Shown here piece by piece: positions 6,117 to 62,419 of a stretch of DNA of 64,000 nt (position 1 is its first letter; the number at the start of each line of letters is the position of its first letter). Made by a program: the position numbers and the translations under genes. The notes under the pieces were generated by a model. The model was not told the origin of the DNA and did no database searches. It was given only the letters and a program-made list of their open reading frames with translations. The stretch is from Lunularia cruciata. Lineage: Eukaryota; Streptophyta; Marchantiopsida; Lunulariales; Lunulariaceae. The stretch spans positions 62,882,333 to 62,946,332 of the forward strand of contig OX419756.1 of the NCBI GenBank assembly GCA_948567375.1. The letters run 5' to 3'.

Positions 6117-6124
6117 TATAAAAA
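6117..6124 (+). promoter_or_regulatory. LTR-A TATA box
   Basis: TATAAAAA in the context 'gtgactataaaaattggg', 380 bp from the LTR start. The same element lies 373-394 bp from the start in five other copies, and here it precedes the reading frame by about 170 bp. Confidence 0.7.
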
Positions 6125-6290
6125 TTGGGCTAAAGATGAAGCGATGATAAGCAATTTCCCATCGCTGTTAAGAAGTCATCTTGCAAGAGATCGAGGGAAG
6201 GGAAGTGTAGTTGAAGACACGCTGGTGTGTTGAGAGGAAGTTGAGAGAGTTAATCCGGGAATCAGTAGGAAGAATAGTCCCCAACCTAGA

Positions 6291-11857: not shown

Positions 11858-14800
11858 TGTGGTATCCACTTTTGAGCTAAGTTGAACTCTTTCAAGGAAA
11901 AGTTACTCCAATATCTAAAGAAAAGGGAGAAAATGAGAATGGATTAGGTAAATAGTGTAAAGGAGCCCTTATGGCTATTGTAGGAAAGGAAATTTTATAA
12001 AAAAAAACTAGAGGAAATGAAGTAGAGCACAAGATGGAATAGTTCAGTTCAAGGAAGTTGGGATGCTCTCAGAAATGGTATGGGTTGGGAACCTTAAGAA
12101 ATTGGTAGGTTAAGCATTCCCTTACATATGTAAATAATCATGATCATTAGCAGCAATGACTATTACCAAGAAAGAGTGAATCATATTTCATAGAAAATGT
12201 GTCGAGGAATCATGCTTGGACCACCAGCAAGGACACAAATTCTGGAGACTAAAATCCAATAAGGCAATAGGTTTTGTTAGCTACCTTGTCAAAATCATAT
12301 TGACACAATGGACAGCGTAACATTTGTTGAGGGTAATACTATTGCTCAAAGATTTGAAATTTAACTAAGAGGGAAAATAGAAAGAACCATTCATGAGAGC
12401 ATGCCAAATGTCAAAAATACCTAGGAGAGGATGCATATATAGAAAGGATGCCAAAAGGCAAGAAATGATCAAAGAGAAAGTTGTAAACTCACATGAGTGA
12501 GAGGCATTGAGTCGAGGAAAAAGCAATTCAAATGACATTTGTAGTTTATGATAAAAAGAAATCATGAAGAGATAAAAGGTTGCTCTAAAGTTGAAGAAAC
12601 CAAAAATTGATAGAATGGAAATATTTGCTAGTAGAGAATTTCTTAGGGAGAAGAATCTATAATTCATGCTTTGGGATTTGGGGTACACCTTGTTGGAAAT
12701 TGGTGTGGAACTCCAAGCAAAAGTCTATCAAAACATTGACACTTTGAGAGGAAATCCAACTAAGTGGACTTTGGAGCATTGGAAAGCAATACTCGGATTA
12801 GATTTGGAAGAGAAGGGCGCATTAAAGTGGGATCACCCCTATCCTAATGCCAAAACAAGAGTAAAATTGATAGAGAACTTGTTTGCAAGAGGGCCTTACC
12901 CTCATAACGGATAGATCATTGCACATTACAAGAACCCAATGAGAAGAGACATTGTTTTAAACCTACTTAGACTACTAAAACCCCATCAAGTCACTTACTC
13001 AAACAATAGTTAGGTATTGTTCTTTGAGGACAATTTTGCAAGAAATTTTTTGGATTGGGCTAATTCATTCCAAGAGCAAGTCAACCAGATGGTAGGAGTC
13101 ATTCATGAGAAAAGACTGCATCATATCATGCCTTTTTTATTCTCTTTTACAGTGCTTACAACTTATTGAATGATGAAGAGCGAGAGGATTTTCCTTGTAA
13201 TGAAATAGAAGAAGGACATGTGAAAGAATAGCCTATGTGGGAGTCATTGATGAAGAAGATGTTGGACAAGGATGCAACGTACAAGCAAAGTGAGGAATTG
13301 GACAATTGAAGTTCAAAAGAAGAGCTAGTAAGTCCTCAAGGAGAAATTGGTTTGAGGAAGCACAAGGTTGTTTTGTCCCCAAAGCCAATACTTCACAAAA
13401 GAAGCATTGGCCAAAAAAGAAGTGACTGTGCATCCAAGAACACAGAGACCCCAAGCCTACATATGAAATCAAAGAGGAACAATTTGAGAGAGAGGTGAAG
13501 GATCTAAAGGGGGATGCAAGGAAGTGCTAGGGGAGCTGCCTTTGATAAGTCTTGAGCAATTAAATGCCAAAAGACAAACACTAACACAATGAGCTTTGAG
13601 AATTAGGAAGGATAACTAGCATAGCAATCTTTGTCAACCAAGATTAAGCAAGATGTCTAACAAAATTCAAGGAAATAGAAGAGAAAGATAGGGTAGTGTA
13701 CATTGACTGAGGCATATTCCAAAACTGTTCCATTGCTTGAATTCTTGGAGCAGTTACATCAAGACCATCCCCAAGTGGAATAGATCATTGAGTTCCCTAT
13801 ATATCTTAGTAGAATAGTTAGGGAGAGAACCTTGGTTTCTGATCTAAAGAAGATCAATGATGCTCAACCAAAGGAAATCAAAGAGAAGGAGAAAAAAATT
13901 TAGAATTCAAAGCAAAATTGTAGGAAACTAAAATGATCAATAAGAAACTTTTGTTGCAATCCAACAAGATAGAAGGTGATATTTTACAGCTTAAGGACAG
14001 TTGGCTTTGGTAACCCTTGAACTTCAAGCTAAGAAAAGGATGACTACACTAGCTAGTCAGTTTTTGCAGGTCAAGTTAGTTGTAGTTCAGGGGAAGTTCC
14101 ATGAATTGGAGAGTGATACCTTGAAGCAAGAGAGTGCTTGGAAATCTATAATGGCAGTCAAGGATAAGGAATTAGAATAATTGAAGGAGAAACTGAAGGA
14201 TGAAACTCTTCAAAAACAAGAATCTGAAAGAGCCTTGACTTGCAGAAATTGTGGAGCAAGAGATCATCATGAAGGACCCAACATGGAAAGATCAAGAGGA
14301 TGGTGCCTTTTGAGAAAAGGTGGAGAGACTCTGTAGGGGATTGCAAGAGCTTATTGACACATTGGTTGAATATGAATGGTCAATTGATGAGCTTAAACTA
14401 CTCTAGAAACTTATGAAGAAATTACAATTAAGTAACAGATTGGAATGGGAAGAAGAAGTTGTTAAATTATCACTGAGGTTTGATCAGAAAGAAAAGAGTA
14501 CCAATGACTACATTAAGTTTACTATTAAGAAGGTAGAAGAGAAGTTAGACCAGATTATAAAGGATTCTGGAGTATTCGGGAACTCTTAAGATGTGTAGGG
14601 ATCACACCAAGTAGTTACAAGGAAATAAAAGATGCTATGAAGCATTGTGACTATTAGGGGAATATGATTTCAAGGGTCATGACAATTAAGGGAAATGTAT
14701 TGGAGTAGGAACTTAGACTATAAAAGGAGCAGATTTTATTTGTTGGTTTTTTAATTTTGCATAAGGTGAAAAAGCAAAAGAGCTATTGGCTCTTTATTGT

Positions 14801-31983: not shown

Positions 31984-34900
31984 CCTACTACACTTGATGT
32001 GAATGGTTACTTTGTGTGAGCCTACTACACTTGATGTGAATGACTTTGTGTGAGGATATATTTGAAAGTGACAAGAGTAACACATGCATTAGATGTGATT
32101 TTGATTGAGGTTTGACCAAAGAACAACTACGATTTAGAGTAGTATAAAATCTAGACTTTGTTGAGAGGATTTTGCAATGCTGAAAGATTATCTTGTGCCT
32201 TTGAATAGTTTTCCTAATTGTGTTCAAATCACAAGCCAGGTTATGGGATTCTTGTGTGTGAAGCCAAGTGAGGAGGAGAGAAACATGATACGCTCAAGAG
32301 AGGAAGATAGGTTTTGGCCATCTTGGTCTGAAATCTTGCCATTAGACATGTTGACATGGTTGCCCGATTCAAGGTCTTGAGCCGACTTTGGATCATTTTC
32401 TTGGCATGGAATTGAAATCTTAGTTTTCCAAGATTCATGATGTAAATTGTAGCTTGTAGATGTGACGAAGTCCAAGTGAGGAAGGGATGAGAGGAAACCC
32501 GACCCAATGGATAGATTCAGATTGGAGGTTAGTTTTAGGCCAAGGTGCAAAAGAACTAATGGGGATCACCTTTGATCAGAAGTGTGATCCAACAGAAGAA
32601 ATAGAGGAACTAAAGGTGATCTTCAATGAACCTTGACAGAAAAATGGCTACAAGGTAGATATTTACGTAGACCCGATGAGGCAAAGTAATGTCAATGCAA
32701 TGATGGCTATAATGAAGCCGCAGTGCACTTCCTATGTAACAAAGCAGCAAGTAGTGTTGTTCCACTCATGTTTGCAGGAGAGAGTGTAAACTAGGTGAAG
32801 TGTTTCTATGTTAGAAAAAGGCAGATAATAGGGCAATCAAAGATGGATCTACCATCCCATTACTTTGTGCCTTTTGCAGCCCATTACTATTTGGGTTTGA
32901 ATTTATTCAACCCCAAGGAAGGAAAGAAGGCAAACGGTATCACATTTTCATCCAGACTTGCATTGGGATGTGGATGAGTAGGAGAAGAAATACATGATAG
33001 AGGTCAGTGAGAGTGACCAGTATTTGCCAAAACAAGTCAAGAAAAGACATTGTCAGTCCCAATTCCTTGACCTAAGAAGAGAAGCCTACCCGAGGACATT
33101 GTCTCACCATCAAAGAAGAGAACTGCTCAATGAGTGAACCTGAGTCAAGCTATCATCAAGGACCAAGGAAGAACAAGAGGTAGAGTCCAACAAGGAGGAC
33201 TCTGATGAGGAGCTGACTCTTAAGAGTAAAGAGTCAAGTAGTGAAAGCAAGGGAGAGCCTGAAGTCCAACAACCAGCAAAGATAGTGGTTGAGGAAGGAT
33301 CAGATTGGGAATTTCATGAGGAAATTGAACACATGCAAGGCAAAGATGCCTCATGCATGGAGCTGCCAAAAGAAGATCTTCTGGAGAAGAAGGACTAGAC
33401 AAGCCCAAAATGTTGTTTCAATGAGGAATACAATCCCAACATCTTGCAAGACTGTTTGTGCCAGACCCAGTGAGCTTATGGCAGAGGAAGAGGGCTCAAA
33501 GGGGATAAGCCTGAAGGTATGAAGATCTTAACTTCAGGTTGCAGCACACGTAACAATCTCTAAAGGCAAAGAAGGACCAGATGAGTTTACCTTCAAGGGC
33601 ATAAAGTACCTTTTGAGTATTGTCTGTCCTCTATTAGTATATTTTCAAGAGCAGATGCAGGAATTGAAGGAGGAGCATCCGGAGGTAAGGAATGAACTTC
33701 AGACTTTGAAGGAGTTGAGTGGAGGGATAAGCTAGTTGAAGGTGATTTTTGCTCAAAGTAGACATGAAGCCGAGGAACTTCAAGTTGAGGCTATGGTGAG
33801 ACAACATAGCTTCAAGAACTTGCATGGGAGTTTTGAGCAATGTGGAGGCTATCTATAGAAAGAAGAGCTGTTAGAGTAGAAGGAGGCACTTGAGAAGCTA
33901 AAGGAGGACTTTGATGACACCCAAGCTGACTTAGTTCACCATAGAACCCAAATCTGAATGCAAGAACAAGCTATGTAGGAACTCAGGCAAGTAGTGGCAA
34001 AGAAGTGTCAAGCTTTGCAAAGAGAGCTTGTAAGTCAAACAAGGGAGGAACAATGCTTGCATGATCTTGTCAATCAGGCCAAAGTTTAGGTTGTCAACAA
34101 GGAAGTGGACCAAAAGAAGATGGAGGTGAAGTATGTTGAGGAATTGCAGCAACTTCATACAAAGTTGGAAGAGGAGGTAACCCAAGGCGCGTCACTGTTA
34201 TCAAAGGAGGGTTTGGGTTTGATAAGTGAGGTCACTACACACTTAAAGGAAATGATCAGTACTGGAGCCAAGGCAGAGTTAGAAGAGGCCTACCTACACA
34301 GGCTCAAATTGTAAGTGCATGAAACGAAAAGGAAGAATGTGAAAGACATAGATTGGAGCAAATTGTTAATTTTCCTTAAAGATAGAGTAGATAGGAATAT
34401 GACAGAAGTAGGTGACAATATATGCCTTAGATTAAATTTAGTTCAGACCAAATTATATAACCTTACTTGCACTATGAGTGAGAATAGAAAGACCTAATCC
34501 AAAGTAGTCAAGATCAAAGTGCAGGTGATTTTGGATGACTTACTTGAGTCATCTAAGACAATTAGAATAGAGAAGAAGAAAATATTTAGGACATCTATGA
34601 CTTGAGTCTCAATAAAAACTGAGGATGTGAGAACAATAGATATAAATGTAGAGGTAGATGATGAATCCAAAATACAAGAGACACTTGTGGTCAATTTGGG
34701 TGATGAAGCTAAAGTTGAGGTAGTACTCAGATTGGATTAAAACCAATAGTAGTTATCGATCCAAAGTGGTAGTAAGATGCTTCATATTTGAAGACTTGCA
34801 TGAAATAGTTAAGTAATTTAGCCAATTTTTATAATTGCCAAGTGGTCTGCCTGTTTAAAGCAAGCATTTGCAATACTTCATATTTAGTATTTTAGCAAAA

Positions 34901-35520
34901 TAATTAGTAAAACAAAGCATTGGACAAGCGCTTGTTGCTTCAATTAATTCCAAGTATCAGTTGATCTTCCTCATTTGTGAATGTATGGAGAAATTTGGAT
35001 TGCATTTAAGATATTGTTAGATGTTAGATTCTACAATTCTGCATTTCAATTTGTGTGTTTGATCCTAAATGAAATGCCTTTGAAGCAATGCCTTAACAGA
35101 TATGTGAGAACTATAGTGTTTGTAGTATTTGTCATTTCTGTTTGCAGGCAAGCGTTTGGTGCAAGGAAATTCTTAATAGGGAAGTTGTACCTTTGATTGA
35201 GGGGTGGAATACAATTTCAAGGCAAAGTCACTTCATGGCAGAATAGCATTCTTCATGTCAACTGAATCATCACAATCAAGACCAATTTGGAATGCTACTA
35301 AAGAATTCTGATTTTGAGTGACACTTATTTGTGGCAAGACTATTGTTTAGCATTTGCTACTCTCTTTTGGGTGTGTTTTCTACCTCAAGATATTAAAGAT
35401 TTAATAAAGAGAACTAAATTATTATCTTTTGCTTCATATTTGAGGATTCCTTAATTGTATCTTTGTAGGAACAAATGATTATTTGCACTTCACCACAAAA
35501 GTGATACTTGTATTGTCACA
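31984..35520 (+). mobile_element. 5' LTR (LTR-A) of the near-complete Gypsy-A element
   Basis: Ends TTGTCACA at 35520, directly before a primer-binding site. It is colinear with the 3' LTR from 46043: 32017 onward matches 46318 onward ('cacttgatgtgaatg', 'actttgtgtg', 'gctgaaagattatctt'). The first ~275 bp are missing at the left, replaced by the junction duplication. TATAAAA at 32143-32149 corresponds to that of the other copies. Bases 32297-34740 hold the decayed LTR reading frame (SHYFVPFAAHYYLGLNLFNP at 32845-32905, coiled-coil segments to ~34740), now full of stops. Confidence 0.85.
32143..32149 (+). promoter_or_regulatory. LTR-A TATA box in the 5' LTR
   Basis: TATAAAA in 'agtagtataaaatctag'. 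It aligns with 46437-46443 in the 3' LTR of the same element. Confidence 0.65.
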
Positions 35521-36204: not shown

Positions 36205-37855
36205 TGTGACAACCCAACAAGTATCACTTTTATGGTAGTCAATAAGTAAAGTTCATTCCCATAGAGATATAAGTCAGAAATGGTCAAATACAAAGTCAAA
36301 TATAACTAAACAGTTCTTCTTGATTGTGTCTTTAATCTCTCAAGTAGAAACCACACCCAAAAGAGAGTAATAAGCAATGAATCACAATCTCATTACAATA
36401 AAATCACACCCATAATCACAATACTTCAAATGTTTCCAAAAAAACTTGGATTGTGATGATTAGGATTCTCTCAAAGAAGGCTACTTCATTATGAAATGAC
36501 TTCCCCTTGGAATTGTGTTCCACCTCTCCAATGAAGGCACAACTTTGTTGATCAAAGTTGCTTTGCATCAACCCTATACTATGCTTACAAATGCAAAATA
36601 CTACCAACACTATAATTCCTCATAGATCTGCCAAGGCATTGCTTCAATTGCTATCCACTCAGGATCAAATAAACAAAATGGAATCAGTACTACGGAATCC
36701 AACATCCAGCAAGCTCATTGACTTGCACTTCAAATTTCTCCAACCACTCACAAACACACACACATAGGATTGATACTTGAAATTAAGTTGAAATGACAAG
36801 CACTAAGTTACAACACTTTGCATTACTCAACTTTAGAATGCTTCCTTTAAATAGGCTTTGTACTTGATAATTACTAACTTAAATACCATTCTACAACAAC
36901 TTTACCAATCTGCAAATCCAAAATGACAAACAACCTCTTCATATGTACCCCTTTATATCTCAAAATGGTTACTATTCCAATTTGATGTCTACCTCAACGT
37001 TGGCTTCTAAACCTGATATTCCTTCAAGTATTTCTCCTTCTTCATGTCTATCTAATGCATGTCTATCTAACACTACTACTTCATCCACTTTTTCTACTAT
37101 CTCTTCAATCCAAACCAAAATTGGAATGATGGCTAACCTATCTATGTTCTCATTTCCTAACCAATCTCTCCTAATATCTGAAGTTACTCACCCAAAGACA
37201 CTTGCACTTCTACTTCTATGACTTTGGACTTCTTATTCACCTTCATCTCATTAGAAATTCTATCTGAGTCTGATCTAACAAGATCTAGTCTGAGGGTTCC
37301 TCGAATATAGTCACCTGACTCCATAATATGGTTCCTCAAGTATAGTAACCTGACTGAACCTAGTAGCGTGGAACTTTCCTGTAGTTTTTAGAGAGGTGGG
37401 GAAGTCTAGTGAGGCAACCTCCTTGCCTATTTTGTGATGCACAAGTTTGGACCAAACTTGAGTAAAGCAACCTTGGCTGACCGTAGGCCGTGTTTTCTGG
37501 CCAAGGTTAGCGCACAAGACCTTTTATAGATGGACACAAATTTCCATAGGGAAGAGCACTTGTTCACAAATGAATAGTAGTTAAGCACTGACCCGCTCCG
37601 CCCTATACAGACCTAGTCCTTATAGGGCGGAGCCCGCCCCAAAAGTTGTACTTAGGGACTTGACCGAGACTGGCCCTCCTTTTTGGGGTAGGCGCCAGCC
37701 TACCCCTTTGTGTATTTGGCACTCCTTCGAGTTCTATTTGTATATTTGATGACACTGTCATATTTTGTTGTATAGGCCTCTAATTTTCCTTTGAGAACGC
37801 CCAAAGACTTCCATCGTGGAAGTGATATAGGAACTCGGGGCGGGGATCATGGCTT

Positions 37856-37888
37856 GAGCCATATGTGGGAAAACTCACATGTACGGTT
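37856..37888 (+). ncRNA. Group II intron domain V-like stem-loop
   Basis: A 33-base hairpin beginning GAGCC and ending GTACGGTT, with a GAAA-type loop and paired ATATGTG/CACAT arms. This is the form of group II intron domain V, the catalytic core, with the AGC triad at the start of the 5' strand. It is followed by 'attaggggggaa' as a domain VI/3' end would be. It is a relic in nuclear DNA and not expected to splice. Confidence 0.65.
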
Positions 37889-37930
37889 ATTAGGGGGGAA
37901 TGCTTGAGAGGGCCTACCTATCCCGACAAA

Positions 37931-37972
37931 TACAACAATATTGTATCATGGGTTCAAATCCCATTTCCTCCG
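37931..37972 (+). other. Possible 3' half of an organelle tRNA
   Basis: TACAA-(5)-TTGTA could be a long variable arm, followed by a T-arm ATGGG-TTCAAAT-CCCAT (5-bp stem, 7-base loop, 37948-37964) and a 7-8 base 3' acceptor-like strand TTCCTCCG. The matching 5' acceptor strand (GGAGGAA) is not seen nearby. It could instead be chance within protein-coding exon sequence. Confidence 0.35.
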
Positions 37973-40236
37973 TAGGAGACAGACATTGTCTTGTACTTCT
38001 AACATCTTCCTGTCTACAATATCTTTGAGACAAATCAGAAGATTTTTCAAGTTGATATCCTTTGCCTTCCTTCTTCTCATCTCCTGCACAAGCAACTTCA
38101 GCTTGTGCATCCTTACCTCTTCTAACTTGACCTTAGCATCAAGACTTAGCATTGCTTTCAACTCCACCATGACTGCTCCTACTGAATCCGACTCCACACT
38201 CAAAACTACATTCTCCTTACTTCATTCTACCTCCAATTTGTTCCAATACATCATCAACTTGTCTTCAAATTCTGCCTTCAATGCTTCCTTCTATTCCACA
38301 TACTGGACTAGTTGACCTTCTATACTTCTGAGCAAACCATGCAATTGATCTTCCTCCTGATGTTGATCTGCCAACTCTCATTGCCTGGTTTGATCTTTCT
38401 CTACTATGCTCTTTTGTGGACTCTCTAGATCTTGCTCCATCATTGCTGCAATTGCCTTTGAGTGTATAACTTCTACCCTTGAATCAACAACTTTATGCTT
38501 CATCTTCTTGAACAACACCTTCTGTTCCTTTAGTTCTTCATTGCACTTCACAAAGTTCTCTTGCAAGGTATGAAGGCTTTTCTTCCAAAGAACTACTTCC
38601 ACCCAAAGTTTTTTGGCTTCTCTCCTCAGGTTAGCTTACTCCTCAACTCCGAGGTCTCTTAACTCCAATGCCTTACCACCTTACCACTTCCAACTCATCC
38701 GTCATTCTCGGATGATTCTTCAACAAAGGACACACAATCTCTCATAGATATTTGACCCCAATGCATATTCCTTCATCATCTCCCATGTCTTCAACTTTGG
38801 TAGGTGGTTCATTGGCTGGTGCTTTACCCCAAAGATGCAATCTTCATACATTCAATGCCATGCCATGCCATGCCATTTGAGCTCTTTTCTTCTTAGTTGA
38901 CTTTGCTCGGACCTATAACTACAACTTGAGCACTTCTCTTTGATCTTGTTTCCCTTGGAAATACCAAGGCAGCCTCTCTTGCTTGTTTGTCTTTCAATTC
39001 AACTATGTGAAACTCCATACACGGCTCATCTCCTTCGTCCATATGGTCAATTGCCTCGTGAAACTCCCACTCTTCTTCTCCAACAATCTCTTCTCCCAAT
39101 TCCTGAACTTTGGGCTCTCCCTCACTCTTGCTCTTGGACTCTCTACTTTGGAGCATGAATGCTTCTTTTGCTCCCAAGTCTTCACACTTTGACTTGGTTT
39201 TGCCTTCTAATTTGTCCTCCAAAGATGGTCTTTTCACTTCTACCAGCATTGGCTTCAGATTTAGCTTTCTTATCTTTTGTGGTTGTATTGGAGTGATTCT
39301 TCCTTTGGGTCTACTTCTCTTCCTTGTCATGGAGATATCCATTGACATGATCATCTCCTCCCCGCTCTTGAGGTAGTAGTCATTGCCTTCTTGCACCCGC
39401 TTAATGTAATATTGCTCATCTTCTATCTGCTTCTCTTTGTGGTTAAGGTGAAAGTGGGACACTATCCGTCCTCTCTCCTCCAAGCTAAGTAGGTTCCATC
39501 CAAAGTAGAAGTGGGCTGCAAAAGGTACAAAGTAATTGGACATTACATCCATTCTCCAATTGGTAATCATTTGCCCAACATATTGGTGCAAACAATTTGC
39601 CCAATCTATTGCCTCTCCTGCAAACATCTAGTGAAAAAACACAACCTTTTGCATTGTTACATAGGTGGTTCACTCTAGCTTAAGCATGGCAATCATTGCA
39701 CTAACAATCTCTCTTTGTACTGGGTCCTTATACCTATCCATCTTATCCTCATTCTTGGTGCAAGGCCTATTGAAAGAATTCTTCACCTTGGCAGTTTCTT
39801 CCAAACATTCACACTTCAGATAGAAGGTGACTCCTCCTACTTCTCCTATTTCTCTCCCCAAGACTAGTCTCCAATCCAACTCAGTCCATCAAGTTGGATT
39901 CCCTCTCTTCCCTTCATGCTTGAGTTTGTCTCTACAATTGCTGGCAGCAATCTTTGCCATGAACCCTAGAAAGCTCAAATTCCAATTTTGGGGCAAAAAT
40001 GTGATGCAAAATCTGTTCAAGACTTTGATCCTTGCCACTACATCTAATCAATGAATTGCAACACCCCTCACCTCACTCTGCTTATTTCCCTTTGGGACCA
40101 TTGTGTGCTTCCTCACTCTCAGCCTCTGAAAGATCAAACCCTCCTTAAAACCTGAGATTCTAACTCCTTTGGGACAACTATTGAGAGGCATAAGATATTG
40201 TCATGATATTTCAGAATACCCGCAATGACATCTCAA

Positions 40237-40243
40237 TTTTATA
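40237..40243 (-). promoter_or_regulatory. LTR-A TATA box (minus-strand solo LTR)
   Basis: TATAAAA on the minus strand in 'gactataaaattg', 373 bp from the LTR start at 40616. This is the same context as in the copies at 6117 and 60738. Confidence 0.65.
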
Positions 40244-40621
40244 GTCTTTTGTTGATAGGTCATTCTTCAGTCAATCTTCAATTGATATGACAATTCTATG
40301 TGTCTATTTTCTATCACTCTCAATGTCATCTTGAACCTAAGGTAGTCACTTTCTTTACACATACTTTCTTGATTGGCTGAACCCGAGTAAAAGTTTTTAC
40401 TGGTTCTTCAGATTGGGTTGCATATCCAGATACAAAGTCCTCTATCTTTAGCTTCATACTTCCATCCATCCAACCTGAGTCCTTCTGACTTTGACCCAAG
40501 GTCAACTTTGGGTCTATTCCAAACACACAATTCTTCTTGTTTCTTTCCCATTTAGCCTTCCTTTGGCTCTAACAACACACTTCTTTAAAACATCTTAAAA
40601 AAATGTGGGTACCACATTGTT

Positions 40622-46042: not shown

Positions 46043-47870
46043 TGTGGTACTCACATTTTTTATTTTTGATAGTTTTTAGGATAAAAAGTGTTTTTAAATA
46101 GAAAAGGAGGTTAGATGAAGAGAATTGGTGTGTTTGGATCTGAAGTAGGAGATCTATCCAACTTGAGGAAGTCAACTTCATGTCAGAGGCAACGAAGATT
46201 TGGATTAGACTTGAAAAGATTGAGGACCCAAAGTGATGACACTTTGTATCAAGATGAAGAAATCTGATCCAAGGACCTTTAACAGCCTTGACTTGGGCCA
46301 TACCAACCAAGAAGGTGCACTTGATGTGAATGGTTACTTTGTGTGGGGATATATTTAAAAGTGAGAAGAGTAACGTATGCATTAGACGTGATTCTTGATT
46401 GAAGTTCAAATGAAGAATGACTATGATTCAGAGGAGTATAAAATTGAGAATTTTTCAAGAGGATTCTCCAATGCTGAAAGATTATCTTATACCTTTGAAT
46501 AGTTGTCCTAATTGTATTAAAATCACAAGCAAAGTTGCGGGACTCTTTTGTGCAAAGCCAAGTGATTTGGAGAAAAACTTGATGTTGTTTAAAGGAAGGA
46601 AGATAGGTTTTGGCCATCTTGGATCAAATTTCTTTCATTAGACATGTTGACATGGTTTGAAAATTTAAGGTCTTGAGCTGACTTTGGATCACTTTCCTGG
46701 CATGGAACTAGAATCTTTGTTTTCCAAGATTCATGACAAAAATTGTAGCTAGTAGATGTGAGGAAGGTCTGAGCAAGGAAAGGAAGAAAGGAAAACTGGC
46801 CTAATGGACGGAATCCAAGATGGAAGTTAGTTGTAGGTCAAGATGCAAGAGAGCCTGGAGGGATCACCTTTGATCAGGAGAGTGATCTTGTGCAAGAAAC
46901 AAAGGAACTAAAGGTGACCTTCCATGAACCTTAAAAGAAAAATAACTACAATGTACATGCTTATAAAGACCCAATGAGGTGAAGTATTGTTGGAGTAGTG
47001 ATGGCTATGATAAAGCTAGAGTGCACTATCTATGTAACAAACTAGCAAGTAGTGTTCTTCCATCTCATGTTTACAAGAGAGTGTAAACTAGGCAAAGTGT
47101 TTCTATGTTAGGACAAAGCACATGATAGGGCAGTGGAAGATGGATCTGCTACTCCATTACTTTGTGCCTCTTGCAGCCCATTACTATTTGGGTTTGAATT
47201 TACTCAACCCCAAAGAAAGAAGGCAGATGGTATTGCATTTTCATCTAGAATTGTATCAGAATGCGAACGAGGAAGAGAAACAATTCATGGCGGAGGTCAA
47301 GGAGAGTGACAAGTATTTCACCAGAACAGGATGAGAAAAGATGCTGTCAATCCCATACCCTCAACCTAAGAAGAGAATCCAAACCAAGGACATTGTCTTA
47401 CCATCAAAGAAGAGAACTACTTGGTGAGTGAACCCAAGTCAGGCTGTAGCAATGGTTGATCTATTGTCAAGGGCAGATGAGGAAGAAGAAATAGAGTCCA
47501 ATGAGGATGACTCTAATGAGATGTTGACTCTAAAGATTAAAGAGTAGAGTATTGCAAGCAAGGGAGGGCCAAAAGTCCAATAGCCAATAGAGGAAGTGGC
47601 CAAGGAAGGATCAGATCAGGACTTTCATGAGGAAATTGAATGCATGGAGGGCAGAGATACCTCATGTATGGACCTACCAAAAGATAACATTCCAAACGAG
47701 AAGGAAGATAAGCCCAAGATCATGTTCCAACAAGGAGTACATTTTTGTTGTCTCACCAAGATTATTTGTGTTGGACCAAGTGAGCTTGTGGTGGAGGAAG
47801 AGAGCTTGGAGGGGACAATCATGAAGGTCTGGAGATCTCATTTTTGGGTTGCAACACAAGTTTTGACATT
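46043..47870 (+). mobile_element. 3' LTR (LTR-A) of the Gypsy-A element, truncated
   Basis: Begins TGTGGTACTCACAT after the polypurine tract. TATAAAA at 46437-46443 (offset 394). The decayed LTR reading frame occupies ~46690-47860: LLLHYFVPLAAHYYLGLNLLNPK at 47150-47210, FHLELYQNANEEEKQFM, then the acidic and charged segments and VGPSELVVEEE. It is cut at 47870 by another LTR-A, and its second half is not found in the window. Confidence 0.85.
46437..46443 (+). promoter_or_regulatory. LTR-A TATA box in the 3' LTR
   Basis: TATAAAA in 'gaggagtataaaattgag', 394 bp from the LTR start. Confidence 0.65.
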
Positions 47871-48341: not shown

Positions 48342-50142
48342 TGTGACAACTTGGAAAATATCACTTTTGTGGTAATTGGGTAAGTAAGGTTCATTCCCAC
48401 AGAGATATTGATAAAAAATGTTTAAATATGAAGTCAAATAGTAACAAGTAGTTCTTCTTGGTTGTGTCTTTAATCTCTTAGGTAGAAACTACACCCAAAA
48501 GAGAGTAACAAGCATTGAATCGTAGTCTCATCACAACAATTTGTCACACTTAATCACAACTCCATCAAATCCGTCCAAACAATCTTGATTGTGATGATTC
48601 ATTCAATCTCTCTCAAAAATAGCACTTCATTGAAAAATGATGTTGCCTTAGAATTGTGTTCCACTTCTCCATTGAAGGCACAACTTCCTCAATCAAAATT
48701 GCTTCACATCAACCCAGTGCTAGACTCACAATTGTAGAATACTACCAACATTACAATTCCTCTCAGACCTATCAAGGCATTGCTTCAATTGCACTTCACT
48801 TAGGATCAAACACACGGAATGAAGATCAAGGCTATGTAATCCAACATTCAACAAACACACTAACTTGCACTTCAAAATTCTACACACACTCACAAACACA
48901 AATGCAAAGTTGATACTTGGAATCAAGCTCAAGCGACAAGCACTGCTTCACAACACTTCACTTTATGTATTCTCAAAAATTATGAGCACTGAACAGCATA
49001 ACACTATAAATGCCACCTTTAGATAGTAAAACAATTGATAGTGACTAACTAATATATTTTTTCCTAATAACCCTTCCTACTTGCAAATCCAAGCTAACAA
49101 TACACCTCTTCATATCTGCCTCTTCAAATCTCAGAACTGTTGTTAATCCAATCCAATGTCTACTTCTTCCAATCCCAAAGTAACCTCACATACTACCCTA
49201 TCCTCAAGTTTTACAACTACTAAATCTTCTACCAATTCTAACACTTCTTCTTCTTGATCTACCATTCCTTTCATGGGTAATCTTATTAAATTTTTTCCCC
49301 GCTCTTCTCTAATATCTTCAATAGTACCTCCAAAGATATTTGTACTCCTATCTCATCTACTTTGGGCTTCACTCTTACATCCTTCCAAAGTTTATCTATC
49401 TCTAACTTAACTAAATCTAATCTAATTGTGATATTGTCTTCCACTTCCAATATCTTCTTATCTACACAAGTTCTGAGACTTATCAGCAAAGCATTCAAAT
49501 CTTTATCCTTTGCATTTCTTCTCCTTGTCTCTTGCACCAACAACCTTAACTTGTGCAATCTAGTTTCTTCAATCCTCACACTAGCTTTTGTACTCAACAT
49601 TGCATTCATCTTTACTACGACCTCCTTCAATGGCTCAAGCCTCATCCTTCTTTCATGTTCTCAATCTACCTACCAATCTTCCCTTTACATTGCCAGTATT
49701 GCCTTGAATTTATTTTTGAAAATCTCCTTCTCCTTCTCAACAATCTTATCTTCCAGATTACAAAGTAACTCCCTTAACCCTTCTTCCTCTCTATATCTCA
49801 CTGTCAACTCTCTTTGCTAGAGCTGCTTCTTCTCTTTTACACTCTCCATCATTTGATTTGCTGCTTCCCTGCTACTCTTGCCATAGCATGGATGATTTCC
49901 AATCGTGAATCAACAAACTACTATTTCAAGATTTCATACTCAACTATCTATCTTTCTCTTGCTATGACATTCTGCTCTATTATGCTCTCTTTACTTCCCA
50001 CTTCCTTCTTTAAATTGTCAATTACTTGATTCTATACTATTGCATCTATTCATAGTTCTTCCTTCTGCTCCTCTCCTTAGGTTATGATCTTCTTTAACTC
50101 CAAGTTCTCTCTTTCTAACTTTGCCAACACGTGCAACACGGT
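48342..50142 (-). mobile_element. LTR-A copy a, 3' part (minus strand)
   Basis: Begins TGTGACAACTTGG at 48342, the LTR 3' end read on the other strand. It contains the end of the LTR reading frame on the minus strand (49645-49286 with RIEETRLHKLRLLVQETRRR and RTCVDKKILEVEDNI, coiled coil to 50130). It is itself split by LTR copy b: the frame resumes at 51617. Confidence 0.75.
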
Positions 50143-51616
50143 TGTGACAACCCGACAAATATCACTTTTGCGGTAATCGGGTAAGTAAAGTTTGTTCTTG
50201 ATACCTTGCTTTTCTCTTCAAGTCCTCAATAACTTGATTCTGTACTACTTTTTCCCCTTGCAGTACTTCTCTTTCCTCCTCGCCTTGGGTTATACTCTTC
50301 TTCAAATCCGAGTTCTCTTCTTCTAATCTCACCAAAACCTGCAACACAATCTTCACCTCCGGACATGTTGATTGCATCTCCTTCTTCCTGGTGCTCCAAC
50401 TTCACCAACAATGGGCACACAATTTCTCGCAAGTACTCCACTCCGTCACTTGCAACTACTTCCTTCTGCGTAGAAATCTCCTCTCTTACCTCTTCTTCTC
50501 CTAATACTCTCCTTCTTCTTTGCAGTTGTCATATCAGAATAGACGCTTCACTTCCCGAGCTAGCATTCACTTCTTCTTTTGCCTTATTTGGACCTGCTTC
50601 ACACTTTGTCTTGCGTCTTGACCAAACTCCTCTCTGAATCATGAACTCCTTCTCCTCTGGCTCGGGTATCTCGTCCTCCAACTTTGCATTATGTTCTTTG
50701 TCAAGCTCCACCCAAACTTCTTCTTCTTCTTCTTCTTTTGCAACAGGCACTGATGTCATCTCTCCACCTTCATTGCTATTGCTACTCGTATCTCCACTCT
50801 GCAGCGTGAGCTCCGGTTCCTCCTTGTGTTCTGAGTCTTTGGACTTGCACTTGGCTTTGCCTTCCGAGTCTTCGTCTTTTGATGCGATCACCACCATGCC
50901 TCTCCTCGGGTTTTCTCTTTTGGTCTTCCGAGGTCTTGTCTTATCTTTGGCTTCTCCTTGCCGACTCTGCTTCTTCAACTTCAGAGTACTCACCTCTATC
51001 TCCATGCTCTTGCCTGTCTTTGCATAGTTCTCATCCGTGCTTTAGATTTGCAGAATGTATTGCTGCTCCTCCGCATTGACCTCTCTTCTCAGGTCGGGAT
51101 GGAAGTGAGACACCATTCTGTTGCGCTCCACCAAATCGAGCAGATTCAACCCGAGGTAGAAATGTGCTACAAATGGCACAATGTAGTGTGGAGGCGACTT
51201 ATCCCATGAATTCCACACTATTTGTCTCATCCTCCCATGAAAGCACCTTGCCCAATTGATAGGTTCTCTTGCAAACATCTTATGGAAGAATACCGCTTGG
51301 TGTTTCATTACATAAGTTGTTCTCTTCGGCTTCAGGATTGCCATGAGAGCACTCACGATCCCTCTCTTCACTTGATCTTTGTAACTCTCAACCTTATACC
51401 CATTCTTTGTTCTCTTTGAAGAGAAGGCATCCCTCACTTCTTGGGTTGATAGGGCAAATCCGAGTACTTTGCCTTATGACCCAAAGCCACTTTACCTTGG
51501 GTTTCATCCCAAAGACTCTTTTCTTTCCCTTCTTTGGCCATACAGGCACAATCCGACTTCTCTATACACTTCTTCTTCTCCATTTAAAAAAAAAAACAAA
51601 ATATGTGGGTACCACA
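50143..51616 (-). mobile_element. LTR-A copy b, internally deleted (minus strand)
   Basis: A 1474-bp unit with both LTR termini: TGTGACAACCC at 50143 and, on the minus strand, TGTGGTACCCACAT from 51616. It is flanked by ACGGT (50138-50142) and ACAGT (51617-51621), a 5-bp duplication with one change. Only ~55 bp of the 3' end remain before a jump into the coding region. A second deletion near 51440 removes the TATA box and the first ~150 codons. What remains encodes, on the minus strand, DAFSSKRTKNGYKVESYKDQ (51437), VKRGIVSALMAILKPKRTTY, PPHYIVPFVAHFYLGLNLLD and FHPDLRREVNAEEQQYILQI. The charged segment follows at 51005-50529 and a short coiled coil to 50162. Confidence 0.85.
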
Positions 51617-52164
51617 ACAGTCTTTACCTCCGGACACTCAGACTGCATTTCTCTCTTCTTCCATTCCAACTTCATTAGCAATGGGCATACAATGTCCCAC
51701 GGATACTCAACTCCTTCACTTTAATTCCCTTCTGCTTGCGGACTTTTCTCCTTCTTTGCTCCTTCTTTGCTTGACACACTTCTTCTAAGCCACAATTGCC
51801 TTATTGGAATGGATTCTTTGCTCCCTAAACTTCCACTCTCCATTTCTCTTCTTCTACTCGACCTCACCTCACACTTTGCCTTTCTTCTAGAGCAGACAAC
51901 CTCTCTAAATGATCACCCTCTTCTATTCTATTTTTGGAAATTTGTCTTCTTGTCTCGGGTTATCTTCTTCTACCATCTCCAACTTTCCCTCTTCTTCCTC
52001 TTGTACCGGCTGCATCTCCACTTCATCTTCCCTTTCACTACTCTATTCACCACTCTAGAATGTGAGTTTAGGTTCTTCCTCTCTCTGAGCCTTCTGACTT
52101 GTACTTGGCTTCCCCTTCTGAGTCTTCTCCTGACGGTACGAGGTCCTTCCTCAAGTTTACTTTT
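51617..52164 (-). mobile_element. LTR-A copy a, continuation (5' end lost)
   Basis: Minus-strand reading MQSECPEVKTV (near 51640) joins the coiled coil interrupted at 50142. Upstream lie the acidic and basic segments of the LTR protein (EEEPKLTF-, RREEDEVEMQ-like). The unit breaks off near 52164, so the N-terminal half and U3 are missing. Confidence 0.65.
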
Positions 52165-52536
52165 TTGTGAGTTTTCCAAGGTTCATGGTAGAAATCAAAA
52201 CTAGTAACTGTATAGATGATCCCAACTTGGAAGGGAAGAGAGGAAATCCAACTTGATGGAATAAGTTGGATTGGAGACTTGTGTTGGGGACTAAAATCAA
52301 AAGAATCACCTTCAACTTGAAGGAGATTGAGGAGTTGATCATGTAGAGGAGATTGAGGAGATGAAGAGTACCTTTAGTGCATGAAGAATGGGTATAAGGT
52401 AGAAACTTACAAAGGCCTAATGAGGCAAAGTATCATTTGGGCTTTGATAGCTATGATTAAGCCAAATCAAACCACCTATGTTACAAAGCAACATGTGGTT
52501 TTCTTTCACCTCATATTTGCAGGCCAAAAGGTTAAT
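52165..52536 (+). pseudogene. LTR-A copy c, continuation with part of the LTR reading frame
   Basis: Plus-strand sequence matching 46725-47090: 'tttccaag-ttcatg', GKRGNPT, WRLVLGTK, 'gaatgggtataaggtagaaa' (KNGYKVE) and VTKQHVVFFHLIFAGQKVN. About 170 bp expected between 48341 and this point are missing. It ends where LTR-B starts at 52537. Confidence 0.65.
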
Positions 52537-56302: not shown

Positions 56303-57361
56303 TTACTTCTTGGTAGCATTTGGGCCATACTTGACGGTAGCTAACCTTTCCTCTACCTCCTCAAGTGTCAATGGTGATTTATCTGGGTCCTTCAAAACCT
56401 TTGGTTTAGGTGCAAAATCCATAGCACACAAGGGACACACATCTAAATCAGATTCAAAATCATCCTCCTCCGTGGAAGTCTCCTCCTCCATGCTTGTGTC
56501 CACACCTGAAGCTCCTACTTTTGAATTTGATTCCCAATAATCAGAAGATGGTATATCTCAATGTGAAGTGTTGGTGATGTTAGTCACATGAACTGTGACT
56601 CTATGGTTTGATGGCCCAATCCTGAAGTACCCTTTGTGCCATCTATCAATTGTGCATGCTGCTCTCAACCATGGCCTCCCAAGAAGTAAGTCATAGCTTG
56701 AATCCTTCAAGACTTGGAAAGTCATGAGATTTCAAACTCCCATAATTGAAGCTACCACCTTATCCATCACCTCTATTGATCAAACTTGTTGCTTGTTTGC
56801 CATGCTCACCACAAATGTTGAAGGTCTTGAGGGTATCATACTGAACTTCTTCATTAACCTTTCTGACATGACATTCATTGCTGATCTTCCATCAACAAGT
56901 GCATCCTTGATGTTGTGACCATTGACTTTCATATCAATCTTGGAGGCATATTCACAAGCCTCCCATGGTGTTGGCTTGGCATCTACCATCCATATTGATA
57001 TTGGAGCTTTGCCTTCTTCTTCTTCTTGCTCCTTGTAGAACTCAAACCACCTCTAAGCTCCTTTCTTTAGGTAGGGCTCAAAGCAATCAATTGGCCCACT
57101 GTGATGTTAGCCTTGTGACTATCAACATCCTCCAACACATTGTAGTTTCCATTGTTGCTTTGAAGTCAAGAAGTCCTCCATCCCCAACTTCTTCCTTGAA
57201 GTCTTTGTTGTTGATGGTGTTGAGGTGCGAGTGCTCCTAGTAGACAAAGGAGTATCCTTGCTTGAAGTAAATCCTTGAGAAGAGTGAACATCCTCTGCAA
57301 AATGAGCTCTCTTCTTCTCTTGTGCCAAAAGCTCCAAATTAAGACCCTTGGAGTTTGAGCA
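56303..57361 (-). pseudogene. Gypsy-B linker, protease and acidic spacer
   Basis: From 57361: LELLAQEKKRAHFAEDVHSS and KKLGMEDFLTSKQQ (linker), then PTPWEACEYASKIDMKVNGH and NIKDALVDGRSAMNVMSERL (56989-56850), the retropepsin with D-G-R in the catalytic D-x-G position. MANKQQV and VASIMGVxNLMTFQVLKDS-like residues follow to 56700. At 56503-56303, SMEEETSTEEDDFESDLDVC and FAPKPKVLKDPDKSPL form an acidic spacer before RT. The copy at 1040-2104 has the same order. Confidence 0.75.
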
Positions 57362-58153
57362 TGTGACAACCCGGCAAATATCACTTTTGCGGTAATCAGG
57401 TAAGTAAAGTTTGTTCCCGCAGAGATACGAGTCAGAATTGGTCAAATACAAAGCAAAGTAACAATTTTAGTTCTTCTTGGTTGCGTCTTTAATCTCTCAA
57501 GTAGAAACCACACCCAGAAGAGAGTAACAAGCACTGACTTGCAGTCTTGTCACAAATTAACACTCCATAATCACAACTCCATCAAATCTTTCCAAACAAT
57601 CTTGATTGTGATGATTCAGGCTCTCCCGAAAATGGCACTTCACTGCAAAACGACTTTGCCTCAGAATTGTGTTCCACCCCTCCACTGAAGGCATAACTTC
57701 CTCGATCAAAATTGCTTCACATCAACTTCGTACTGCACTCATAAAAGCAGAATACTACCAACACTACAATTCCTCTCAAATCTGTCAAGGCATTGCTTCG
57801 ATTGCACTTCACTCAAGATCAAACACACAAAATGAAGATCACGGCTGTGGAATCCAACATCCAACAAACACTTTGAATTGCACTTCAAATTTCTCCAAAC
57901 ATTCACAAACACAATCACAAAGCTGATACTTGGAATCAAGCTCAAGCGACGAGCACAGCTTCACAGCACTTTGCTTTATCTATTCTCAAAAATAATGAGC
58001 ACTGAACAACAATTTCCTGCGAATGCCACTCTTAAGTAGTGAACAATCAATAGTTCTAACAACTATACCATTCTACAACAACTCTTCTAACCTGCAGATC
58101 CAAAATGGCAATGCACCTCTTCATATCTGCCTCTTCAAGTCTCAAATTGGTTA

Positions 58154-60718
58154 CTAATCCGATCCGATGTCTACTTCTTCCTCGGCTTTCAAACCTGAAC
58201 CCGAAGTAATCTTACTTCCTACTACATTTTCCTCGGGTTTCACATCTCCTACTTCTTCGACCAGATCTAGCAATTCTCTTTCCTGATCTGAAATTGCACT
58301 AGTGGGCAATCTATCTAACCCTTCATCCTTCAACCCACTCTTCTCTAATGTCTCTGAGGGCAACTCCGAAGACATTTGGATTCCTATGTTATCTACTTCG
58401 GGTTTTGCCTTAACATCCTGCCGAAGCTTTTCTAACTCTATTCTCACTAAGTCTAATCTAATCACAATATTGTCTTTTACTTCTAAGATCTTCTTGTCTA
58501 CACAAGTTCTGAGACTAATCAACAAGGCATTCAAATCTGTATCTTTTGCTTGTCTTTGCCTCGTCTCCTGCACCAACAACTTCAACTCGTGCAACCTTGT
58601 TTCTTCAATCCAAACACTGGCTTCTGTACTTAACATTGCGTTCACTCTGAGAACTATTTCCTTCAATGGCTCCAATCTTGTCTTTCGTTCTCGTTCCCAA
58701 TCTGCAAGCCATTCCTCTTTGTACATTGCCAACTCTTCTTCGAACTCGGCCTTCACCGCCTCCTTTTCTTTCTCCTTCTGTACAATTTTCTTTTCTTGAT
58801 TACGAAGTAACTCTCGTAATCTCTCTTCTTCTCTATACCGCACAGACAACTCTCTTTGCCAGAGCTGCTTCTTCTCCTCCATACTCTCCATCACTCGATC
58901 GAGCTCTTGGTCCTTTGATGCTACCCTCGCCATAGCATGGATAAGCTCTACTCTTGAATCAGCAAATTGCTGCTTCAAGATTTCAAATTCAGCTACTTGT
59001 CTCTCCCTTGCGATGTCACGCTTCCTCTCAAGATCCTCTCAATAGCTCACTTCTCTCTTCAGGTCTTTGATTACCTGACTTCTCTCTACTGCTTCCGCTT
59101 GTAGTACTTCTCTCTCCTTCTCACCTTGGGTTATACTCTTCTTCAACTCCGAGTTTTCTTCTTCTAATCTCGCTACCACCTGCAATACAGTCTTTACCTC
59201 TGGACAAGTCGACTGCATCTCCTTCTTCTTCTTCTCCAACTTCACCAACAGCGGGCATACTACCTTCTGCAGGTACTCTACTCCCTCACTGGCAACTTCT
59301 TCCGTAATTTCGTGTTTCTCCTCATGTTCTTCTGATATGCGCCTTCGTCGCTGAAGTCTTCGTATCGGAATTGATGCCTCACTACTCGTGCTATCTTCTG
59401 CATCTGCTTTCACTTTACTTGGCCCCGCCTCACACTTTGCCTTATGTCTCGAGCGAACTCCTCGCTGTACTGCGATCTTCTTCTCCTTGAGCACCGGTAC
59501 TTTGTCTTCCAGCGCCGCATTGTCTTCGGCTTCTACTTCGGCTTGCACTTCTTCTTTGTATTCTTTAGCCACTGGTGCCGAGGTCATTTCTCCACCGTAT
59601 TCACTGTCACTGCTAGTATCTCCACTCTGTAGTGTCAGCTCAGGTTCCTCCTCACGTTCCGAGTCCTCTGTCTTGAGCTCGGCTTCGCCTTCTGAGTCTT
59701 CATCTTCTGACTCAATCACCACCATCCCTCACCTTGGGTTATGTTTCTGCATCTTCCGAGGTTTCTTATTTTCTTTGGCTTCTGCGTGCCGAGTTCTCTT
59801 CTTTGTCAAGGTACTTACCACGACCTCCATGCTTTTCCCTATCTTCGCATAGTAGTCGTCCGTGCTCCGGATTTGGAGAATGTAGTGTTGCTTCTCCGTG
59901 TTGACTTCTCTTCTCAAGTCAGGATGGAAATGAGACACCATTCTATTGCGCTCCGCCTAATTGAGCAAATTCAACCCGAGGTAGAAATGTGCTGCAAATG
60001 GTACAATGTAGTGTGGAGGCGACTTATCCCATAGATTCCACACCATTTGCCTCGTTCTCCCATGAAAGCACCTTGCCCAATTGATCGGTTCTCCTACAAA
60101 TAACTTGTGAAAGAACACCGCTTGGTGTTTCATCACATAAGTGGTTCTCTCCGGCTTCAGGATGGCCATTAGTGCACTCACAATTCCTCTCCTCACAGGG
60201 TCTTTGTAGCTCTCAACTTTGTACCCATTCTTCGTTCTCTTCGACGAGAAGGCATCTCTCACCTCCTGCGTTTCTTGGGCTATCTCTCCTTTCCCCAAGA
60301 ATGTGGCTCCCTGCTCCGAACCCGCCTCCTTCTCGAGTACGAGTCTCCAATCCGACTCTGTCCATTGAGCCGGATTTCCTCTCTTCCCTTCTTCCTTGGG
60401 CCCATCGAGACACTTACTCTCGATGATTTCTGTCATGAATCCTGGAAAACTTACATTCCAGTTCCATGCCAAAAAGGTGATCCAAAGTCGGCTCAAGAAT
60501 TTGATCCTTGCTACTACATCTAATCTCCAAATCGCATGATTTCTCACTGCAAATTCAGAGTTTTTCTTCCCTCCTCCCATCTCTTTTGCTTTCTTATTGT
60601 GTCTTGATTTCTCTCTCGCGACTTCTCTCTTGCGCACTAACCCGAGTACAACTCTATTTCCCTTTCCCCGATCACCTGCAAGATGACTTCTCAACGGCAA
60701 AGGAAAATTGCTCGACAT
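58154..60718 (-). pseudogene. LTR-encoded coiled-coil protein (best copy; three stops, no frameshift)
   Basis: An 855-codon frame, in phase throughout, broken only by stops at 59957-59959 (TAG), 59729-59731 (TGA) and 59039-59041 (TGA). The two TGA sit where sister copies suggest CGA, a CpG decay. The first ATG (60718) lies only ~20 bp from the TATA, so ATG 60580 (MGGGKKNSEF) is a likelier start. Residues ~47-330 form a conserved region: VRNHAIWRLDVVARIKFLSR, LAWNWNVSFPGFMTEIIESK, RGNPAQWTESDWRLVL, GIVSALMAILKPERTTYVMK, GEPINWARCFHGR, HYIVPFAAHFYLGLNLL. Residues ~330-450 are Glu/Ser/Lys-rich. About 500-790 is a strong coiled coil (ELKKSI, QRELSVRYREEERLRELLRN, ETRLHELKLLVQETRQRQ). It ends EEVDIGSD. 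It is neither gag nor pol. Its domain plan (plant-specific globular region plus coiled coil) recalls the 'putative plant transposon protein' families, but I cannot assign it. Confidence 0.8.
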
Positions 60719-60737
60719 TTTGTCATTGCAGTTTCAA

Positions 60738-60745
60738 TTTTTATA
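60738..60745 (-). promoter_or_regulatory. LTR-A TATA box (best copy)
   Basis: TATAAAAA on the minus strand in 'aactctataaaaattgaa', 385 bp from the LTR start. Confidence 0.75.
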
Positions 60746-60996
60746 GAGTTGCACTTCTTCATCTTCCGTTGCTTCAAGTTTCTACCGAGAAATCACACCT
60801 CCTGCATGCACCTGTCACTGTCAATCAACCTTTGCGCGTATGAGCCGCCAGTTTTGAAACGGCCCCTTCTTGAATTTCTCGCCCCGACGAAAGGTCGTTA
60901 GACTGTCTTTGCCTCGGGTTGAGCTCCCCCCGATCCAAAGACAATTTACTTTGTATGGTATGCTGACAAGGCATTTCCGAGGACTTTGCCTTATGA

Positions 60997-61018
60997 CCCA
61001 AAGTCACTTTACTTTGGG
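60997..61018. promoter_or_regulatory. U3 palindrome of LTR-A
   Basis: CCCAAAGT and ACTTTGGG form an exact 8-bp inverted repeat with a 6-base spacer, 113-134 bp from the LTR start. The copy at 51488-51509 keeps a worn version. It could be a protein-binding site for the LTR promoter; this is inference from symmetry alone. Confidence 0.4.
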
Positions 61019-61130
61019 TTTCATCCCAAAGACACTTTTCTTTGCCTTCTTTGGCCATACAGGCGCAATCCAATCTCTCTATACACTTCGTCTCCTTTAT
61101 TTTGAAAAAACAAAAAATGTGGGCACCACA

Positions 61131-61723
61131 GAGCACTATCCCATCTCATACTTGCTCTCAACCACATCTATGGATGCTATCTCCCTTACCTTTGTTTGGA
61201 TTAGGAGCCACTTGGGTTTCACTTCCTCTGTCTTTCTCTCTATTGGCTCCCTCATAACCCTTTCCTCCATGGTAAGTGGAATTTGGACAATTCCTTTGGA
61301 TGTGACCTCTTCCTCCACAACCAAAACAATTTCTCTCATTGAAATTGTTGATTGGCTGGCCTCCTCTCTATGGATAACTTCTATGACTCCTAGGCCCTCT
61401 CCCCACATTCTGATCCACCTCTCTCTTCTCCCATAGTTGCACTACATTGATCTTGAGATCTGCAAGTTGTTCTGTGATGGTTTGAAGAGGATCCTTTGGT
61501 AGAGGTGCAAGAACTAGAGCAACTACTACTTGTGGTGCAACCTTTGCCACCAAAGTATCAGAATTTCCACCATGATTGTAACCTTGAGGAGGATGCAAAA
61601 CCTCCTACACCACCAAATCACTCTCATCTCCTTCCAAACTCCCCTCCATAAAAATTGCAATCTTGATAACTTCAACCTTGGAAGAAGGTTTCTCATATCT
61701 CACCTTGCTTTTAATTTGTGGTC
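61131..61723 (-). pseudogene. Gypsy-B gag C-terminal part with zinc knuckle
   Basis: On the minus strand CFGCGGRGHIQRNC (61328-61287) is a complete CX2CX4HX4C nucleic-acid-binding knuckle. Upstream (61600-61430) EQLADLKINVVQLWEKREVD suggests the C-terminal capsid/linker. Downstream, PKWLLIQTKVREIASIDVVE leads to the target site of the solo LTR. Frames change between these pieces. Confidence 0.75.
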
Positions 61724-62415: not shown

Positions 62416-62419
62416 TTTT

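Follow-up and report, generated by a model that had tools for sequence, protein, structure and literature searches.

Here we describe a long terminal repeat (LTR) that contains a gene of its own. The LTR, copy A, lies at 57362..61130 on the minus strand of a 64,000-nucleotide stretch of Lunularia cruciata DNA (contig OX419756.1, positions 62,882,333 to 62,946,332; the whole stretch is referred to as the window). Copy A is very probably a solo LTR left by an Athila-like retrotransposon of the Ty3 type that carries an accessory gene in its LTRs, and the frame within this LTR is under purifying selection between LTR families.

Copy A is a true LTR with its own reading frame

A preliminary description of this DNA had proposed LTR termini with a perfect GAGCA target-site duplication and a TATA box followed by a single long frame with three stops and no frameshift. 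The observation was confirmed on both counts. The 3,769-bp unit has TG...CA ends read from the letters (TGTG...CACA on the minus strand) exactly at 57362 and 61130, and GAGCA is repeated perfectly on its two sides (57357..57361 and 61131..61135). The LTR gene (58154..60718, minus strand) comprises 854 codons, the ATG included, and then a stop; it lies wholly within the LTR in the sense orientation, contains internal stops at 59957-59959, 59729-59731, and 59039-59041, and has no frameshifts. A TATAAA box (60740..60745, minus strand) precedes the gene, and its first T lies 27 nt ahead of the ATG. Numbered along the sense strand of the LTR, TATAAA is at position 386, the ATG is at 413, and the frame ends at 2977.

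The genome of the window (566 Mb, 74 contigs) was searched with the DNA of copy A, and 36 of 13,530 first-look candidates were scored. There were 34 full or near-full-length matches to the unit, the window's own included, and the other 33 were 91 to 94% identical. Twenty genomic places (L009 to L028) were cut out with their flanks; the copies were picked by search score, which biases the sample toward intact frames, and one of them (L022) was left out of the 20-copy analyses and had its flanks read separately. Eleven of the 20 fetched copies were solo LTRs with target duplications matching at four or five of five positions (5/5 in L011, L013, L015, L016, L017, L019, L022, L024, L026, and L028; 4/5 in L012). 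A polypurine tract (PPT), CATTTGAGGGAGGGGGTA or a close form, stood directly 5' of the LTR in five of the 20 (L009, L014, L021, L023, and L027), and a primer binding site (PBS), TTGGCRCCGCTGCCGGGGA, stood directly 3' of it in three; the sequence directly after the LTR in L010, L018, and L025 was TGATTTTTGGCRCCGCTGCCGGGGATAC or a close form. Only L020 fitted none of these classes. Because the same end-to-end unit adjoins a PPT (5/20) or a PBS (3/20), it is not nested within short LTRs, a structure that the preliminary description had named as grounds for refutation.

Two of these copies, L010 and L009, are the two LTRs of one full-length element; they lie 6.1 kb apart in the same orientation with GCTCT on both outer sides, and at 95.9% identity they are the closest among the 190 pairs compared. 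One point change was present at each outermost LTR end of this element. Copy A is a true LTR: TG...CA ends, target duplications, a PBS, a PPT, and two LTRs in one element were all found. The prediction that a full element would carry the gene twice also held: each of the two LTRs of the one full element examined has the gene, as does every aligned solo LTR. L022 (C8:447387-454885), a solo LTR with the duplication ATGAT, lies inside an LTR of the same family in the opposite orientation.

Selection on the LTR gene

Codon comparisons were made by maximum likelihood with a GY94-type model and F3x4. Copy A was compared with copy D (5737..9498, plus strand), a full LTR in the window that is 76% identical to copy A and is flanked by AGTTA/AGTTC (4/5). 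The ratio of nonsynonymous to synonymous change (omega) was 0.186, with twice the log likelihood difference (2dlnL) against a value of 1 being 197, and the two shifted frames gave 1.57 and 1.54. By region, omega was 0.16 in the N-terminal part, 0.06 in the middle (saturated), and 0.19 in the helical tail; in the last 50 residues it was 0.64, which was not significant. Ten disjoint pairs from the A family gave an omega of 0.684 (2dlnL, 42), with shifted frames at 0.92 and 0.99. A ratio below 1 among copies, which had been put forward as a check, was thus obtained both between families and within the A family.

The LTR pair of the full element (L010/L009) gave an omega of 1.54 (2dlnL, 3.4), indistinguishable from 1, and no selection was detected between two LTRs of one element. 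Since omega was 0.19 between families and not different from 1 within the one element, the gene appears to have worked during element replication and to decay after insertion. The earlier suggestion that the gene survives in every solo LTR was supported in that the frame was found in all aligned solo LTRs, but its survival there looks passive.

Insertions and deletions (indels) were also compared. Relative to copy A, 19 copies contained 7 distinct indels in the coding part (2,562 bases) and 20 in the noncoding part (1,207 bases). As only two of these seven coding indels were multiples of three, it is the rarity of indels and not their length that argues for constraint within the family. In the comparison of copy A with copy D, multiples of three made up 7 of the 10 indels within the frame and none of the 10 in noncoding sequence. 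Stops averaged 3.75 per copy in 20 copies and 3.36 in 53 copies; simulation gave 5.3 for copies that were intact at insertion and neutral thereafter and 15.7 for copies that had been neutral since the split of the A and D families.

A genome search with the LTR protein scored 53 of 34,805 candidates, ranked by protein score, which favors intact frames. All 53 scored matches, the window copy included, aligned over at least residues 8 to 852 without a frameshift, and 1 of the 53 was free of stops. Related units do carry the frame, as seen in both LTRs of the full element, in the 53 protein matches, and in the C-type relatives described below. For pol, omega between the copy A family and the element of LTR F was 0.10 to 0.12, and both the LTR gene and pol are constrained between families. 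Within the family (L009, L014, L021, L023, and L027; the 3 kb before the 3' LTR), the LTR gene was constrained but pol was not significantly so in the two pairs pooled.

The element is Ty3 type and appears Athila-like

Profile searches identified gag and a zinc knuckle in L018 and a zinc knuckle (CCHC), reverse transcriptase (RT), RNase H, and integrase in L009; gag (L018) followed by the order RT-RNase H-integrase (L009) is the arrangement of Ty3/Gypsy elements. The pol frame runs into the PPT of the element, which leaves no room for a third gene ahead of the LTR, and the env-like open reading frame (ORF) that many Athila members have between pol and the 3' LTR was not found at that place in this element. 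The element has FIDDFCVFG as its RT motif, close to FMDDFSVFG, which was the form seen most often in the 121 pol sequences compared and is typical of Athila. The primer-site sequence read after the LTR was TGGCRCCGCTGCCGGGGA, possibly the complement of tRNA-Asp, the primer used in the Athila lineage (PMC1142308).

The RT-RNase H part of the full element, run against a protein database, gave 3,867 matches among 8,000 scored candidates, and the best 120 of these matches were listed. Among those listed, the best were unnamed sequences (up to 71% identity), the best named relative was from Marchantia polymorpha (64 to 74% identity over ∼60% of the query), the next named relatives were from Riccia fluitans (55%) and Calypogeia fissa (49 to 52%), and angiosperm matches were at ∼45%. 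Marchantia and Calypogeia are liverworts, as is Riccia, and the best named pol relatives are therefore from liverworts. This points to a probable liverwort host and not to the large-genome seed plants whose assemblies the preliminary description had suggested searching. The element is of the Ty3 type and appears Athila-like, the Athila assignment being based on similarity and motif.

In Diaspora, a soybean relative of Athila, a 2.5-kb LTR is followed after 5 bp by a tRNA-Asp primer site, and in the available part of its description there is no env-like gene (PMC1142308); its authors state there that no other lengthy ORF is present, the 2.5-kb LTR included (PMC1142308). The element described here resembles Athila, Calypso, and Diaspora in its PBS, putatively of the tRNA-Asp type, a few bases past the LTR, its long LTRs, and its similar RT motif. 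Like Diaspora, it has no gene between pol and the PPT; unlike Diaspora, as far as that description goes, its LTR carries a selected gene (PMC1142308).

The LTR protein

The LTR protein has a conserved N-terminal domain, an acidic middle, and a charged helical tail, with charged residues making up 38 to 42%. Of the architecture first proposed (a conserved N-terminal domain, a charged middle, and a long coiled coil), the first two parts stand, and the coiled coil is weakly suggested by heptad periodicity in 3 of 11 stretches (p of 0.03 or less). A Pfam profile check, which had been recommended, was run on the full frame and on pieces of it; nothing exceeded the curated cutoff, matches were at chance level, and PF20167 ("putative plant transposon protein") was absent. 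A genome search for PF20167 gave no match, but its 14 controls gave none either. In a protein database that includes Marchantia proteins, and that unannotated transposon frames would escape, residues 1 to 360 had no match (4,829 candidates) and a second search with the LTR protein had none among the 7,999 best candidates scored. No transmembrane segment, such as a retroviral env-like protein would have, was found (maximum 19-residue hydropathy, 1.28) in two stop-free pieces that jointly span the frame. Judging from these features, the protein most likely assists replication inside the cell as an accessory factor and perhaps acts as an oligomer on the element's own RNA or chromatin.

Promoters and layout of the LTR

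All 20 of the A-family LTRs, and copy D, share the TATA box and its 27-nt spacing to the ATG. The TATA boxes of copies A, D, C, E, and F align, and, as read from the alignment, E, F, and F2 have a spacing of 34 nt. A possible second core promoter, CTACTTAAGAG (58029..58039, minus strand), is located near the 3' end of the LTR; CTAYTTAAG or CTATTTAAAGG was present in 20 of 21 aligned LTRs, and similar boxes were present in B, C, and E. The conserved noncoding 3' part of copy A (57362..58031, minus strand) is defined by its DNA identity to C and E: the last 670 bp are ∼70 to 80% identical to those of C and E, whose protein is only 27 to 42% identical.

The LTR gene may be transcribed from the conserved TATA box directly ahead of its ATG, and the genomic RNA would start at the second, weaker box, ∼680 bp from the LTR end, with the repeat (R) and unique 5' (U5) regions following. 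The gene would thereby lie in the unique 3' region (U3) under its own TATA box, as in mouse mammary tumor virus (MMTV), with the U3/R/U5 borders placed provisionally. A complete copy of the gene would come with every insertion, including those now present as solo LTRs, and would decay afterward.

We lean toward this gene-in-U3 layout, with an arrangement based on a single promoter nearly as likely and only a little short of an even chance. In the latter, the TATA box at position 386 would start the genomic RNA, the gene would lie in a long R as the first cistron, and the PBS would be ∼3.4 kb from the cap. That box is the stronger of the two and its position is kept in A, D, C, E, and F, and a long R has a precedent in the LTR of rice Retrosat2, for which the available text gives U3 as 1-244, R as ∼2 kb, and U5 as ∼1 kb, all from motifs (PMC3485330). 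The final 670 bp, however, are the most conserved noncoding part of the LTR and have a box of their own, as would be expected for a block of promoter, R, and U5, which counts against a single promoter. A conserved U5 could explain the 3' conservation by itself, and the U5 of Retrosat2 is reported there to be conserved too (PMC3485330). The barley BARE LTR is described in the same text as having two TATA boxes (PMC3485330).

Alternative explanations

A separate single-gene element, e.g., a DNA transposon with LTR-like ends, would account for the 11 of 20 fetched copies that are single units with 4/5 or 5/5 duplications. This explanation is refuted by the PPT or PBS that abuts the unit in 8 of the 20 and by the two-LTR element with one duplication around the whole, and we consider it scarcely credible. 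That the frame was captured from the host or arose by chance, and does nothing for the element, is only slightly less improbable: stops are present in 52 of the 53 scored copies and the within-family omega is 0.5 to 0.7, but the omega of 0.19 between families contradicts it, as does the greater conservation of codon positions 1 and 2 in 12 of 12 blocks (blocks found by protein similarity). A different question is that of origin. The frame could once have been an additional ORF, env-like or of the Retand type, that stood downstream of pol and ahead of the 3' LTR and was engulfed when a new PPT arose beside pol, which is compatible with an accessory gene in the LTR and which we regard as possible though rather doubtful. 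That pol ends inside the PPT would fit, as would the extra ORF that Athila-lineage relatives are described as having between pol and the LTR in the available parts of two papers (PMC1142308, PMC7264820). The LTR protein has neither a Pfam match nor a transmembrane segment, which speaks against such an origin; the PF20167 search of the genome was empty, as were its controls.

An accessory gene held in the LTR remains our preferred explanation for copy A. A stronger form of it, in which the LTR is a self-contained gene cassette and the protein from any recent LTR, solo LTRs included, is needed for replication, is put forward tentatively, as somewhat less probable than not. Several observations weigh against the accessory-gene explanation. 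Only one LTR pair serves as the neutral control, and the within-family signal is modest: by plain counting, the ratio within the family was 0.34, and neutral simulation with the family mutation spectrum gave 0.57 (0.36 to 0.94 in 200), so that this measure alone is weak. Within the family, pol gave an omega of 0.88 (two pairs pooled, indistinguishable from 1); the LTR gene in the same two pairs gave 0.53 (2dlnL, 26). As to expression, the TATA box is so near the ATG that hardly any leader remains, A and D have an out-of-frame ATG 8 nt ahead of the start, and the 3' box is weak. The consensus RNA fold of the 3' part of the LTR has little covariation (a term of −4.1 of −95.9 kcal/mol).

Related LTRs in the window and age of the gene

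The window contains further relatives of copy A that the preliminary description did not mention; D, C, E, F, B, G, and H all hold frames homologous to its gene, at widely differing divergence. Solo LTR C (36205..40616, minus strand; 4,412 bp) has the duplication TTGTT (5/5). LTR E (32028..35520, plus strand) is a 5' LTR followed by a primer site at 35521, its start being provisionally placed where homology begins. LTR F (46043..47870, plus strand) is a 3' LTR that is preceded by a PPT and cut by the start of another LTR, F2, at 47871. LTR B (48342..52175, minus strand; end approximate) lacks its 5' part and is inserted in F2, which resumes at ∼52176. G (50143..51616, minus strand), an internally deleted LTR, is inserted in B with the duplication ACGGT/ACAGT (4/5). 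The most distant homologue of the LTR gene, H, is at 12453..13148 (plus strand), and no LTR ends were found for it. Protein identity to the LTR gene of copy A was ∼40% for C, 32 to 39% for F, 27 to 32% for E, and 25% for H. With the C-type protein as query, 150 of 16,352 genomic candidates were scored; excluding the query, these were 44 to 70% identical. Codon positions 1 and 2 were more conserved than position 3 in all 12 aligned blocks of at least 90 codons (from D, G/B, C, E, F, and H), blocks that were located by protein similarity, which itself favors conservation of positions 1 and 2. Judged by the divergence of these homologues, the LTR gene is old.

Insertions of LTRs into LTRs are evident at 46043-52560, where the start of F2 interrupts F, B lies within F2, and G, a mini-LTR with two deletions and its own 4/5 duplication, lies within B. 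The element near 40.0-48.3 kb has an RNase H on the plus strand, and a minus-strand Pfam scan of that interval gave no match. Copy A itself is inserted in a different Ty3-type element on the minus strand (53600-57356 and 61136-64000). One flank of this host element contains RNase H and integrase, with weaker protease and SH3/Tf2-type matches below the cutoffs, and the other contains a subthreshold zinc knuckle; inverted copies (52530-53592 and 61724-62415) lie near it. Elsewhere, ∼353-765 (plus strand) is a fragment that matches LTRs of the copy A superfamily in their 3' part, and ∼9580-15720 (plus strand) has Ty1/copia gag and weak RT matches and is apparently cut by the region of homologue H. 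A 270-codon open frame at 28908-29720 (plus strand), containing a hydrophobic stretch and ending in a long proline-rich tail, is possibly a host gene, and a tandem repeat at 26717-27013 has a 76-bp period and about three copies that are 86 to 94% alike.

Parallels and significance

Large retrotransposon derivatives (LARD elements) have LTRs of 4 kb and more that are not described as coding; the element described here resembles them in LTR length and differs in having gag-pol inside it. The closest parallel that we found appears to be sag of MMTV, an LTR gene that lies in U3 and is expressed from a U3 promoter of its own, P2 (PMC9412291). The sag ORF is overlapped by naf; MMTV belongs to an unrelated virus group with an unrelated host, and no sequence relation is claimed. 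For plants, the accessible sections of a review on additional ORFs locate these in the internal region of LTR elements and not in the LTR (PMC7264820). Grande gene23, Retand ORF4, and RIRE2 are similar to our case in that most copies encode a conserved extra protein without known function, but their ORFs are internal (PMC7264820). Retrosat2 has LTRs of >3 kb, solo LTRs that outnumber full elements, an extra ORF0, and a conserved U5, but ORF0 lies upstream of gag-pol and the available text does not locate it in the LTR (PMC3485330), and its introduction states that the replication enzymes are not encoded by LTRs (PMC3485330). Three other candidates were set aside: maize Fie2, which is described as within an element and is not an LTR gene (PMC1560396); crapaud of Podospora, which has a variable U3 and no LTR gene in the available description; and the bdelloid ORF3s, for which no LTR location is given there. 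In the parts of the open-access literature available to us, outside of which most subscription papers lie, MMTV-type LTR genes were found and a plant LTR with its own gene was not.

If the LTR is indeed a self-contained cassette, the element would disperse its essential accessory gene as a very large number of independent copies and would represent a nonretroviral counterpart of the MMTV LTR gene, old enough for divergence to 25% identity. Plant LTRs are normally regarded as noncoding, and the divergence between the LTRs of an element is used as a neutral clock. The LTR described here is mostly coding and is selected between element generations, and a neutral control for tests of selection on the gene is built into each full element in the form of its two LTRs. 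If the gene is transcribed, every solo LTR would be born as a working gene, and the way in which solo LTRs are read and annotated would change.

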